From Marinomonas sp. CT5 (GTDB lineage: Bacteria > Pseudomonadota > Gammaproteobacteria > Pseudomonadales > Marinomonadaceae): 64,000 bases of DNA. Under the pieces are notes generated by a model that saw nothing but the letters and a program-made list of their open reading frames with translations, made no database searches and was not told the origin of the DNA. Below, piece by piece: positions 15,924-20,901 of this stretch. The stretch covers positions 4,622,162-4,686,161 of the forward strand of contig NZ_CP025572.1 in the NCBI RefSeq assembly GCF_018336975.1. Direction: 5' to 3'. A program made the position numbers and the translations under genes. Each line of letters opens with the position of its first letter. The first letter of the stretch is position 1.

Positions 15924-16697
15924 TTGACTCAGTCTGATTCCGATGTTTTCAGCCTGCCTGAGGAAGCGGAAGCCCACGATCACGATTACCATCAATTGGT
16001 CGTTGTGCTCGATGGCAATACCGATTTCGATATAGAAGGCAAAGGCAAACAATTGCATACTGGCGAAGGTTGTATTCTTCCTTCGGAGAACAGTCATGCC
16101 TTTGCCGGTCTGGGTGAAAATCGTATTATGGTGGTCAACCTGCCTATTCCGCCACAAAAAAGCATTACCGACGAAGAGTACGAAGTCGTCTCACGCCTAT
16201 TTGATCAGGCGGCGTATTTCCAGCTTAATCCACGCTTGCAAATACTGGCTTCCGCCCTATCGGGTGAGCTACAACAGTACCCTAATGATACAATTCTAGC
16301 TCGCGCCTGCGGCAACACCTTGCTGAGTGCCATTCGCCATCAAATCAACAACAAAGATGTTCGCTCCCGCGGTAACCATTTGGATATTGATAAACTGGAT
16401 CAATTTATTGAACTGAATTTGTCTCGTCGTGTTCATATTGATCAACTGGCGAACTTCTGCTTTTTGAGTGTCAGCCAATTTCACGAACGCTTCAAAGACC
16501 GCACTGGTATGACACCGCATCAGTATTTGATGCGCAAACGTTTAGAACGCGCCCAAAGTTTACTTACAGAAGGCTTTCCACCTATTCAAGTAGCGGAAAT
16601 GTGTGGTTTTTCAAGTCAAAGCGCCATGACCAATGTATTTTCTCAAACCCTAGGAATCACTCCGTTAAAATATCAAAAGCAGTTTAGTGCCCGCTAA
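15924..16697 (+). CDS. AraC-family transcriptional regulator
   Basis: 257 residues. An N-terminal cupin sensor domain (HDHDYHQLVVVLDG, GEGCILPSENSHAFAG) precedes a C-terminal double helix-turn-helix. HTH1 includes RVHIDQLANFCFLSVSQFHERF and HTH2 IQVAEMCGFSSQSAMTNVFSQ, followed by the family ending LGITPLKYQKQF. The start is an unusual TTG at 15924 with AAAGGCG about five bases upstream. The ATG at 15901 runs into a stop after one codon, so it is not the start. It sits between a TRAP operon and putA, both on the same strand. It could control either, and the target cannot be decided from sequence. Confidence 0.85.
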   Translation: MTQSDSDVFSLPEEAEAHDHDYHQLVVVLDGNTDFDIEGKGKQLHTGEGCILPSENSHAFAGLGENRIMVVNLPIPPQKSITDEEYEVVSRLFDQAAYFQLNPRLQILASALSGELQQYPNDTILARACGNTLLSAIRHQINNKDVRSRGNHLDIDKLDQFIELNLSRRVHIDQLANFCFLSVSQFHERFKDRTGMTPHQYLMRKRLERAQSLLTEGFPPIQVAEMCGFSSQSAMTNVFSQTLGITPLKYQKQFSAR

Positions 16698-17009: not shown

Positions 17010-20000
17010 ATGTTTAAAGCGATTGAGGTATTACAGCCTAACTTCATTCAGCGTCCACTCAATGAATTGTGGCAGCTCATTTCCCCTCTTTATAATATGG
17101 ACGAAGAGAAATGGTTAAAGGAATTATTACCTTTGGCAAAGCCCACTGAGGCAGAGCTAGAAAACCAAACCAATGCCGCGGCAAACTTGATTACTGAAGT
17201 CCGTAAAGACGACGACAGTATGTCTATGATTGATGCACTGCTATTGGAATACAGCTTAGACACCAAAGAAGGCATTTTGCTAATGTGTTTGGCCGAAGCC
17301 CTAATGCGCGTGCCAGATAAAGAAACCGCTGATGCTTTCATCAAAGACCGTTTAAGTGTTGCTGATTGGGCATCTCACGCAAAAAATTCGGACTCCTTCT
17401 TCGTGAATGCTTCTACTTGGGGCTTATTGTTGACGGGTAAAATCGTCACAATGGACGAAAGAAAAGATGGCTCACCAGCGAATTTAGTGAACCGGATGGT
17501 AAACCGTGTTTCTGAGCCGGTGATTCGCAAAGCAATGAACCAAGCCATGAAAATCATGGGGCATCAATTCGTTCTAGGCCGCAGCATTGAAGAAGCCCTA
17601 TCGCGTGGTAAAGGCTATCGCGACAAAGGCTATACCTACTCTTTCGATATGCTGGGTGAAGCCGCGCTAACGGCCAGCGATGCAGACAAATACCTCAAGT
17701 CTTACATGCAAGCGGTTGAGTCCGTAGGCAAAGATACTTACAGCAAAGGCTACCGTCCGACAATTTCTATCAAATTGTCTGCATTGCACCCTCGTTATGA
17801 AGTAGGCTGTGAAGAACGCGTCATGACAGAGCTTTTCGACAGTGTCAAAGCATTGATCATCAAAGCACGTTCCTTAAATGTCGGCATCACTATTGATGCG
17901 GAAGAAGCTGATCGCCTAGAGCTTTCTTTGCACTTATTTGAAAAGCTTTACCGCGACGAATGCGCAAAAGGTTGGGGCTTGTTTGGTCTTGTTGTTCAAG
18001 CGTACTCAAAACGCGCGTTACCGGTTTTAGTTTGGTTAGCGGCACTGTCTAAAGAGCAAGGCGACCGCATTCCTGTTCGTCTTGTAAAAGGCGCTTACTG
18101 GGATTCTGAAATCAAACTATGCCAACAACGCGGCATCAATGGTTACCCAGTCTACACTCGTAAAGAAGCGACGGATGTCTCCTATCTAGCCTGTGCGCAC
18201 TTCTTACTGAGTGAACACACCCGCGCCAATATTTTCCCGCAGTTTGCGAGCCACAATGCCCATACCATTGCGACAATTAGCTGCATTGCTAAGCAGCTTG
18301 GCGCAAGCACAGAAGAGTATGAATTCCAGCGCCTACACGGTATGGGAGATGCGCTTTACAACCGCCTCATTAAAGACAACGACATCTGCGTACGTATCTA
18401 TGCGCCAGTGGGCAGCCACAAGGACTTGCTTCCTTACTTAGTTCGTCGTTTGCTAGAAAACGGCGCGAACAGCTCTTTCGTTCACCGCCTCATTGATGCC
18501 AGCTACCCTGTGGAAGATCTGATCGGTCACCCAGTGACAACGCTTGAAAGCCGTAAGTCACTGGCAAATCCTCACATCAATTTACCAGCCAACTTGTTTG
18601 ATGATCGCAAGAACTCCTTTGGTCCTAATATCGAAATCGACTCTGATTGGACGCCGTTTAAAGCCAAAATCGATGCCTTCATGGGACAAGATACCCAGTG
18701 GCGCGCTTTCCCAATCGTGGGAGGTGAAAAAATCGCAACCGGTCAAACGCATGTGATTGCAAGCCCTTACGACCACAGCGAAACCGCAGGTCAGATTGAT
18801 TGGGCAAACGCAGAGACAGTGACCAAAGCCATCGACCTTGCTGAAGCCGCTTTTCCTGCATGGTCTGCGCGTCCAGCAACAGAACGAGCAGATTGCCTAG
18901 ATAAAATGGCTGACTTGATGGAAGAAAACTACGCGGAATTGATGGCACTTTGCCACCGTGAAGCCGGTAAAACCATTCAAGACAGCATCGACGAAGTACG
19001 TGAAGCCGTGGATTTCTGTCGCTACTACGCGCAACAAGCCCGTAGCCACTTTGCGAATCCAACACATTACACGGATTTCTTAGGCAATGAGAAACAAGCT
19101 AAGCTAAACGGCCGTGGCGTGTTCACCTGCATCAGCCCATGGAACTTCCCACTGGCCATCTTTACTGGCCAAGTGGTTGCCGCTCTTGTAGTTGGTAACA
19201 CAGTCGTAGCAAAACCGGCAGAACAAACCAGCTTAATCGCATTCCGTGCTATCGAAATGCTCCATGAAGCGGGTGTACCGACAGATGTACTGCACTTGTT
19301 ACCAGGTGACGGCGCCACCGTTGGTGCTCCACTTACTAGCGACAAGCGCATTGCTGGTCTTGCCTTCACAGGTTCCACAGGTACCGCACAATTGATCAAC
19401 CGCACGTTAGCGGCTCGCGGCGTTGTGCCAGTGCCAGTGATCGCCGAAACAGGCGGTCAAAACGCTATGTTGGTTGACTCCACGTCTTTGCCAGAGCAAG
19501 TGGTACGTGATGCAGTTCGTTCTGCCTTTGCTTCAGCTGGGCAACGCTGTTCTGCTTTGCGCGTATTGTTTGTTCAAGCCGACATTGCTGATCGCGTTAT
19601 CCCGATGATTAAAGGCGCTATGGCTGAACAAAGTGTGGGCTTACCTTACCTTCACAGTACCGATGTTGGCCCTGTTATCGATAAAAAAGCACAGAAAATG
19701 CTGCTCGATCACATTGAACACATGAGCAAAGAAAGCAAACTTATCGCTCAAGCGGAGCTACCTGACTTTGCCGAAAAAGGCACTTTCGTTGCACCAACGG
19801 CGTTTGAAATTAGCAGCATTGACCAGCTAACCGATGAGAAATTTGGCCCTATTCTGCACGTTGTACGCTATAAAGCACGCGACTTAGATAAGATCATCGA
19901 TACCATCAATAACTCAGGCTTTGGCCTGACTATGGGTGTTCACAGCCGTAACGAAACCACCTGTGCGCGCATTGCGAGCCGTGCTCGCGTGGGTAACCTC

Positions 20001-20132
20001 TATATCAACCGCGACCAAGTGGGCGCCGTTGTTGGTGTTCAACCTTTCGGTGGACAGGGTTTATCAGGCACAGGACCAAAAGCTGGTGGTCCTCATTACC
20101 TTCAACGCTTCGCTATTGAGCAAGACCTTTAA
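17010..20132 (+). CDS. putA: Bifunctional proline dehydrogenase / P5C dehydrogenase PutA
   Basis: 1040 residues. It oxidises proline to glutamate in two steps, passing electrons to FAD/quinone and then NAD+. The proline dehydrogenase barrel runs from about 140 to 440, with KLSALHPRYE, IDAEEADRLE and the substrate/FAD motif RLVKGAYWDSE at 357-367. The aldehyde dehydrogenase domain runs from about 540 to 1030, with ISPWNFPLAIFTGQV, ETGGQNAMLVDST and catalytic Cys847 in SAGQRCSALRV. The N-terminal ribbon-helix-helix DNA-binding domain of enteric PutA is absent. The protein ends right after GTGPKAGGPHYLQRFA, where long (type B/C) PutA proteins continue into a C-terminal ALDH-fold domain. That domain is encoded by the next gene. 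Confidence 0.97.
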   Translation: MFKAIEVLQPNFIQRPLNELWQLISPLYNMDEEKWLKELLPLAKPTEAELENQTNAAANLITEVRKDDDSMSMIDALLLEYSLDTKEGILLMCLAEALMRVPDKETADAFIKDRLSVADWASHAKNSDSFFVNASTWGLLLTGKIVTMDERKDGSPANLVNRMVNRVSEPVIRKAMNQAMKIMGHQFVLGRSIEEALSRGKGYRDKGYTYSFDMLGEAALTASDADKYLKSYMQAVESVGKDTYSKGYRPTISIKLSALHPRYEVGCEERVMTELFDSVKALIIKARSLNVGITIDAEEADRLELSLHLFEKLYRDECAKGWGLFGLVVQAYSKRALPVLVWLAALSKEQGDRIPVRLVKGAYWDSEIKLCQQRGINGYPVYTRKEATDVSYLACAHFLLSEHTRANIFPQFASHNAHTIATISCIAKQLGASTEEYEFQRLHGMGDALYNRLIKDNDICVRIYAPVGSHKDLLPYLVRRLLENGANSSFVHRLIDASYPVEDLIGHPVTTLESRKSLANPHINLPANLFDDRKNSFGPNIEIDSDWTPFKAKIDAFMGQDTQWRAFPIVGGEKIATGQTHVIASPYDHSETAGQIDWANAETVTKAIDLAEAAFPAWSARPATERADCLDKMADLMEENYAELMALCHREAGKTIQDSIDEVREAVDFCRYYAQQARSHFANPTHYTDFLGNEKQAKLNGRGVFTCISPWNFPLAIFTGQVVAALVVGNTVVAKPAEQTSLIAFRAIEMLHEAGVPTDVLHLLPGDGATVGAPLTSDKRIAGLAFTGSTGTAQLINRTLAARGVVPVPVIAETGGQNAMLVDSTSLPEQVVRDAVRSAFASAGQRCSALRVLFVQADIADRVIPMIKGAMAEQSVGLPYLHSTDVGPVIDKKAQKMLLDHIEHMSKESKLIAQAELPDFAEKGTFVAPTAFEISSIDQLTDEKFGPILHVVRYKARDLDKIIDTINNSGFGLTMGVHSRNETTCARIASRARVGNLYINRDQVGAVVGVQPFGGQGLSGTGPKAGGPHYLQRFAIEQDL

Positions 20133-20146
20133 GGGGAGACATTACT

Positions 20147-20830
20147 ATGACAATCGTACAACCTATCCAAATTCAGGTCGCTCAAAAAGTCTTCGAAGCC
20201 TGGGACAAACTTGGCGTCAGTGGTCGTGCAGAAAAACTGCAAAAGGCCCTTAGCTCTTTCCCTAGCGAACAAGGAAAAATGGCCGCTTGGCAAATTGATA
20301 ACGCGCAAAAATCCATTGCTCAAACTCGCGTTATGCCAGGACCAACCGGCGAGCGCAATGAGCTATCTAACCAAGGCCGAGGCCCTTTTCTTTGCATGTC
20401 TTTTATCGAAAATGATAAGACAAAAGTGGGCTTAGTGGGTCAAGTGTTTGCAGCGCTAATTGCAGGTAACCCAGTGATTACGGTTGGCCCATCAGGTCAA
20501 GAAATCATGGACATCATTTCTCCTTTCGTGGCAGAAGGGGTCATACAAAACATTGCTGAATCGGCTCAAGATTCTTTGATTGAAGCGAACCACCTTGCTG
20601 GTATCGCAACGCTTTGTGACTCTATGCAAGCCCAACAGTTGAGCCAGCGTCTTGCAAAGAAAAGTGGCTTAATTTGCCAATTGATTGAAGAAACCGATGC
20701 GGAAAACCTCAGTGTTATTGCCAAACCGCATTACATTCTTCGCTTTGTCACAGAGCGTACTGTGTCTAACAACACAACCGCCATTGGTGGTAACGCCACA
20801 CTGCTCGAATTAGGCAGTATGAACGACTAA
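20147..20830 (+). CDS. Stand-alone PutA C-terminal domain (ALDH-fold, tunnel-sealing)
   Basis: 227 residues that match the C-terminal domain of long PutA proteins. They contain MPGPTGERNELS (enteric PutA has LPGPTGERN) and end ERTVSNNTTAIGGNATLLELG (enteric ERSLSVNTAAAGGNASLMTIG). In fused PutAs this ALDH-superfamily domain has no catalytic Cys; its conserved C-terminal motif packs on the P5C dehydrogenase and closes the substrate tunnel. Here it is a separate gene 14 bases after putA, with its own AAGGGGAG ribosome site and ATG, so it is not a simple frameshift. I infer that it binds PutA in trans. It has no catalytic residues of its own, so a label of P5C dehydrogenase would be misleading. 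Confidence 0.85.
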   Translation: MTIVQPIQIQVAQKVFEAWDKLGVSGRAEKLQKALSSFPSEQGKMAAWQIDNAQKSIAQTRVMPGPTGERNELSNQGRGPFLCMSFIENDKTKVGLVGQVFAALIAGNPVITVGPSGQEIMDIISPFVAEGVIQNIAESAQDSLIEANHLAGIATLCDSMQAQQLSQRLAKKSGLICQLIEETDAENLSVIAKPHYILRFVTERTVSNNTTAIGGNATLLELGSMND

Positions 20831-20863: not shown

Positions 20864-20901
20864 ATAGCCCTTTTTGGTTACAAAAAAAGGGCTATTTTTT
20901 T
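20864..20901 (+). terminator. Bidirectional terminator after the put operon
   Basis: ATAGCCCTTTTT pairs with AAAAAAAGGGCTAT, ending at 20895, and TTTTT follows. On the minus strand it also has a T tract, so it may serve the converging binding-protein gene that ends at 20917. Confidence 0.9.

Follow-up and report, generated by a model that had tools for sequence, protein, structure and literature searches.

The putA locus of Marinomonas sp. CT5

We analysed a window of 64,000 nucleotides from Marinomonas sp. CT5 (contig NZ_CP025572.1, positions 4,622,162 to 4,686,161 of the forward strand), in which putA is followed by a small gene encoding a free-standing counterpart of the C-terminal domain (CTD) of long PutA proteins. 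The putA product carries proline dehydrogenase (PRODH) and glutamate-semialdehyde dehydrogenase (GSALDH) domains in a single chain, as is characteristic of a bifunctional PutA, and matches the NCBIfam PutA model PRK11904 with 1614 bits. Its C-terminus reads ...GPKAGGPHYLQRFAIEQDL, and the chain stops 12 residues past the GGP that closes the GSALDH domain, lacking both a CTD and its own terminal conserved motif. Since the CTD is not in the putA polypeptide, this is not a type B PutA, in which the CTD is fused into one chain. The small gene begins at 20147, 14 bases beyond the putA stop codon and in a different frame, which bears out an earlier sequence-only reading that PutA stops just after its aldehyde dehydrogenase (ALDH) domain and is followed closely by a second gene. 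The features are as follows (positions within the window).

17010..20132, + strand: putA, 1040 aa, PRODH and GSALDH catalytic chain (open reading frame, ORF; Pfam PF01619, PF14850, PF00171)
19053..19133, + strand: putA residues 682-708, ANPTHYTDFLGNEKQAKLNGRGVFTCI; the type A motif (e.g. LPGPTGESNEL..GRGVF) is absent here (alignment)
20133..20139, + strand: ribosome site GGGGAGA, abutting the putA stop codon, 7 bases from the ATG (sequence)
20147..20830, + strand: small gene, 227 aa, ATG start, non-catalytic ALDH fold
20339..20359, + strand: GPTGERN, residues 65-71 of the small protein, in the turn that connects flap strands 61-64 and 69-77; the motif is present in 78/78 small proteins
20753..20815, + strand: terminal motif ERTVSNNTTAIGGNATLLELG, residues 203-223 of the small protein, comprising the third flap strand (201-209) and then the tail

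The small protein is a non-catalytic ALDH fold

Pfam gives only a sub-threshold ALDH match for the small protein. Matches to proteins of known structure are clearer: it aligns with residues 1080-1235, the CTD, of the long PutA of Sinorhizobium meliloti (SmPutA; PDB 5kf6) at E 3.6e-7, and more strongly with the GSALDH domain (618-795 plus 970-997) of a short type A PutA from Bradyrhizobium (6bsn) at E 1.5e-14. The predicted structure consists of a Rossmann fold and a three-stranded flap, without a catalytic subdomain and with the terminal motif, which is the fold of a PutA CTD; the tail from residue 215 on has pLDDT below 50. The best fold match is the NAD-binding part of a type A GSALDH. The suggestion that the 227-residue protein corresponds to the PutA CTD thus held, given the match to 5kf6 and the terminal motif at residues 203-223.

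The small protein often bears the database name 1-pyrroline-5-carboxylate (P5C) dehydrogenase, and elsewhere aldehyde dehydrogenase family protein, proline dehydrogenase or hypothetical protein. A P5C dehydrogenase is expected to have a catalytic Cys and Glu and an NAD site, and these are found in 0/77 small proteins. The motifs PWNFP, KPAEQT, FTGST, ETGGQN and GQRCSA occur in 0/77 small proteins, compared with 76-77/77 of the PutA chains; GQRCSA, ETGGQN and PWNFP are in 77/77 split PutA chains, that of Marinomonas sp. CT5 included. Judged by its sequence, the small protein is not an enzyme.

The idea that the small gene encodes a second P5C dehydrogenase also has a published form. A transcriptome study of Vibrio campbellii describes, in the passages used here, an operon putBCP in which PutB is a proline dehydrogenase, PutC a P5C dehydrogenase and PutP a permease; putBCP is down-regulated in an hmgA mutant, and PutC is among the transcripts measured (PMC3858670). 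PutC is very probably the small gene, because another V. campbellii strain (L159) has the order AraC-like ORF, putA (1043 aa), small gene (235 aa), putP; this is judged by gene order, with locus tags uncompared. The feature shared with putBCP is this gene order, as seen in L159; the difference is that those passages describe separate enzymes and a permease, not PutA plus a CTD subunit (PMC3858670). Set against the database names and this description, the small protein is about half as long as an ALDH, has no catalytic subdomain and lacks the nucleophile Cys, the general-base Glu and the NAD motifs that the adjoining PutA has; a role as P5C dehydrogenase is barely credible. The misnaming foreseen from the sequence is indeed frequent in databases and extends to that study (PMC3858670). 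Literature searches, judged mostly on titles and abstract openings, brought up no evident report of a separate gene for the PutA CTD.

The pair is conserved across genera

Of 48 congeneric genomes, 47 combine a free-standing CTD frame (230-302 aa) with a PutA frame (1045-1099 aa); the lone exception is a genome that is 77% complete. Relatives in named genomes number at least 564 confirmed, of which the best 80 loci were kept; a free-standing CTD ORF lies downstream of a PutA ORF in all 80 of these best-scoring loci. The two sets overlap, and the 47/48 and 80/80 counts are not independent samples. The 80 loci cover 11 genera, namely Psychrobacter (24), Photobacterium (15), Marinomonas (13), Vibrio (12), Marinobacterium (6), Salinivibrio (3), Enterovibrio (2), Nitrincola (2), and Aliivibrio, Grimontia and Bermanella (1 each). 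The arrangement is accordingly common to other, mostly marine, gammaproteobacteria, as had been supposed. In broader surveys a free-standing CTD was found in 10/145 genomes of the order, and in 33/79, 18/99 and 2/81 genomes of the families to which genomes G083, G172 and G162 belong; among 274 genomes drawn across the class, that of Marinomonas sp. CT5 alone had a frame below 400 aa that matched the CTD. One genome of the family of G083 (G511) has both a free-standing CTD (C39, 285-aa frame) and a fused PutA (C112, 1206-aa frame).

In five of the 80 loci (L040, L053, L065, L083, L087) the PutA ORF is short or broken, and these were excluded from motif counts; among the 78 pairs, one genome is counted twice (L158 and L101, the same genome by contig and ORF lengths). 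In 77 pairs with full-length PutA, the small gene starts in frame 2 (42), 1 (19) or 0 (16) relative to putA, and 75/77 gaps between the genes lie within -12 to +40 bases. Since the small gene begins in all three frames, programmed frameshifting or stop read-through is ruled out as the mechanism of its expression. With start codons picked blind to the site, a ribosome site (match of at least 4 bases) precedes the small gene in 73/77 pairs, compared with 56/871 internal-ATG controls.

A sequencing break or a decaying remnant of a fused gene would leave a similar arrangement. Little speaks for it: two small genes (G563, G609) were initially flagged for an internal stop, but both are intact, at 229 and 230 aa. 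Conservation across 11 genera, junctions in all three frames and the ribosome sites speak against it, as does dN/dS, which is 0.06-0.16 for the small gene (8/13 pairs with finite dS, with dS near saturation); for putA it is 0.02-0.09 (12/13 pairs, dS likewise near saturation). Such an artefact or remnant is highly improbable, in line with the earlier view that the gene is real and has its own ribosome site.

Ten loci (L050, L048, L063, L067, L071, L084, L110, L111, L114, L118) have one in-frame stop codon between putA and the small gene, where rare read-through would yield a fused PutA; the frame varies among relatives. The gap is 163 bases in Marinomonas aquimarina (L049), and in a Bermanella metagenome-assembled genome (L083) 1360 bases separate the end of a 606-aa PutA ORF from the small gene downstream, where an assembly error is possible. 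In the 24 Psychrobacter loci (L078-L112), PutA extends 24-44 residues beyond the GSALDH GGP, against 12-29 in other split chains, and about half of the extension is Ser/Thr/Gln/Asn (mean 0.49); this extension might serve to tether the small subunit.

Type A ancestry of the catalytic chain

The tree of catalytic chains comprised 63 rows: 25 split chains, drawn from 83 pairs, 20 fused and 18 type A, the last two groups being hand-picked from search hits and hence non-random. The 25 split chains form one clade (SH-aLRT 99), which is nested together with 10 type A chains in a clade of 35 rows (SH-aLRT 100), apart from 20/20 fused chains. Approximately unbiased (AU) tests, run with LG+G4 and a quick search after the first tree had been seen, reject a clade of split and fused chains, with p 1.5e-4 on the complete core, 7e-47 on its PRODH half and 6e-4 on its GSALDH half. 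For this sample, the catalytic chain descends with the type A PutAs and not with the fused ones. This is where the sequence-only reading, which took the pair for a long PutA cut in two, did not stand. Across the 63 rows, the nearest relatives of the catalytic chain are type A PutAs of the kind represented by the Bradyrhizobium enzyme (BjPutA; 3haz/6bsn).

The sealing elements are distributed differently. Type A PutAs have both in their own chain and have no CTD: their GSALDH domains carry a GPTGE.N loop (16/18 by regular expression, the other two being close variants), and 18/18 have their own terminal motif after GSALDH, compared with 0/78 split chains, which in this respect are not type A. 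In the split pairs, the GPTGE loop and the terminal motif are each found in 0/78 catalytic chains and are both found in 78/78 partner small proteins. The fused PutAs show the same partition within one polypeptide (0/20 in the core; by regular expression, the CTD has the loop in 18/20 and the terminal motif in 15/20), with a PLGE look-alike retained at the loop position in the cores of L119 and L120.

Sequence similarity of the small proteins points to the same neighbourhood. Their terminal 27-mer is closest to neighbouring type A chains in 25/25 cases. A profile built from the split small proteins gives 112-175 bits with near type A chains, 95-149 with other type A chains and at most 138 with fused CTDs, the values for L143 and L148 being too low because the terminal piece was lost to the overlap rule. 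In pairwise comparison of the NAD regions (n=25), the best score falls on a near type A GSALDH in 17, another type A in 7 and a fused CTD in 1. The small protein was likely born by duplication within the type A lineage, a step that we infer. Because of the type A placement and the partition of the two elements, the split probably arose by partial duplication with reciprocal loss, rather than by the cutting of a long PutA.

The core tree does not group the fused PutAs into a single clade (5 changes, of which at least 2 are forced). The CTDs of two of them (L120 and L131; G151 and G373) score 390 and 396 against type A GSALDH, and 320 and 244 against the best other fused CTD. The fused CTD itself may have arisen several times.

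Predicted complex of PutA and the small protein

Association of the two proteins was modelled template-free with AlphaFold2 on a natural read-through chain, in which the PutA part and the small protein are joined by a 9-residue linker. The model alignment held only natural in-frame read-throughs plus GSALDH rows; an earlier alignment was set aside, as lone small-protein rows were apparently aligned onto the GSALDH domain (judged from conserved positions). The model superposes on the long PutA 5kf6_A over 659 residues at 2.4 Å, and the small protein is predicted to dock on GSALDH where the SmPutA CTD sits. Structure prediction, proposed earlier as a check on the complex, accordingly agreed as to docking and superposition; it did not reach the tail and the substrate loop, both with pLDDT under 50.

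A separate subunit as putative tunnel seal

In long PutAs, the CTD mimics the second protomer of short PutA dimers, steadies the aldehyde loop and seals the tunnel, and the sealing elements of type A PutA act across the homodimer. We consider the small protein to be a non-catalytic PutA subunit that docks on GSALDH as a putative seal, of type A origin through duplication and reciprocal loss, with a probability of roughly 80%. It would be translated beside putA, presumably by coupled translation, and would dock on the GSALDH domain at the place of the long-PutA CTD, where its flap and C-terminal tail may steady the aldehyde-binding loop. Once docked, it would close the tunnel that carries P5C/GSA (glutamate semialdehyde) from the PRODH to the GSALDH site. 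Binding in the cell, which the sequence-only reading took to be probably obligate, and sealing of the tunnel are both steps that we infer. The ancestor would have been a short type A PutA with both sealing elements in its own chain, and its 3' part most likely underwent tandem duplication. From the second copy the catalytic subdomain would then have disappeared, with the GPTGE loop and terminal motif retained, and the first would have kept catalysis and lost both elements. The split pair would thereby represent a third solution, in which the protomer mimic is a separate subunit. It resembles the type B/C PutAs with a fused CTD, such as SmPutA (5kf6), in domain order, in having the loop and motif on a non-catalytic domain and in predicted geometry; it differs from them in that Marinomonas encodes the CTD in a gene of its own and has a catalytic chain that descends with the type A PutAs.

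Several results weigh against this interpretation. Foldseek gives the model about 6 Å rmsd (root-mean-square deviation) over all 757-773 columns, and pLDDT stays below 50 for residues 745-762 (terminal tail), 525-540 (linker) and 488-507 (substrate loop), which leaves the seal itself outside the confident part of the model. The parts were also tied together beforehand by the linker, and AlphaFold2 probably saw SmPutA. In a tree of NAD domains (108 rows, many long branches), a branch sets the split and fused CTDs together on one side (support 91, unstarred), as a common origin would predict. Holding the split small proteins with split and near type A GSALDHs gives p 0.132, a placement neither shown nor rejected.

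That branch is also part of what favours gene fission, in which a long type B PutA came apart at the junction of GSALDH and CTD: the two genes jointly match the type B domain order and length, and the read-through model superposes on SmPutA. Fission nevertheless conflicts with the position of the catalytic chain inside type A, with the AU rejections for the core and for each half, and with the terminal motif, nearest to neighbouring type A PutAs throughout. The search for a fused form in relatives, which the sequence-only reading had called for, found none in 47 congeneric genomes or in the best 80 of at least 564 named relatives. In the surveys of the order, the class and the three families, CTD matches of at least 148 bits occur only in free-standing frames and long frames reach at most 124, with a split-built profile that favours split proteins. 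Fission is, on balance, quite improbable.

The small protein could instead bind PutA for another job, as an assembly factor or as a membrane or regulatory (functional-switching) subunit. The low-confidence docking of the tail leaves room for this, and functional switching of trifunctional PutAs has been linked to the CTD, in the part of the source used here (PMC5293562). We regard such a role as unlikely, since the small protein kept precisely the two elements that the catalytic chain lost and its predicted position is that of the SmPutA CTD.

Neighbouring genes and other matches

Two further features flank the pair.

15924..16697, + strand: AraC-family regulator upstream of putA (ORF; AraC family named in an annotated Salinivibrio record)
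20866..20901, + strand: terminator-like hairpin with a T run, 3' of the small gene (by eye)

In 47/80 loci, the 1.5 kb upstream of putA contain, on the same strand, a relative of the AraC-type regulator; pruR is the name given to the Vibrio counterpart in the passages used of PMC3858670. putP lies within 0.7 kb downstream in 39/80 loci, yet in 0/13 from Marinomonas. Contig ends truncate some of the 80 loci in these counts. A search of the Marinomonas sp. CT5 genome gave a single full-length PutA match and a single small-protein match. PutA had 36 matches there, itself included, nearly all to the ALDH part, and one of them (2035551-2036963) contains three internal stops.

Significance

If this interpretation is correct, the pair would be a natural PutA whose seal can be added or removed as a purified protein, and what the seal contributes to GSALDH activity and to channelling could be titrated directly. 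The annotation of the gene would be corrected in Vibrio, Photobacterium, Psychrobacter and Marinomonas genomes. The locus would also illustrate a route from a self-sealing to a two-protein enzyme through division of labour between copies. More tentatively, the tunnel-sealing domain of PutA may have arisen at least twice by partial ALDH duplication and reciprocal loss, and here, as a separate subunit, might open and close the channel by release and binding.

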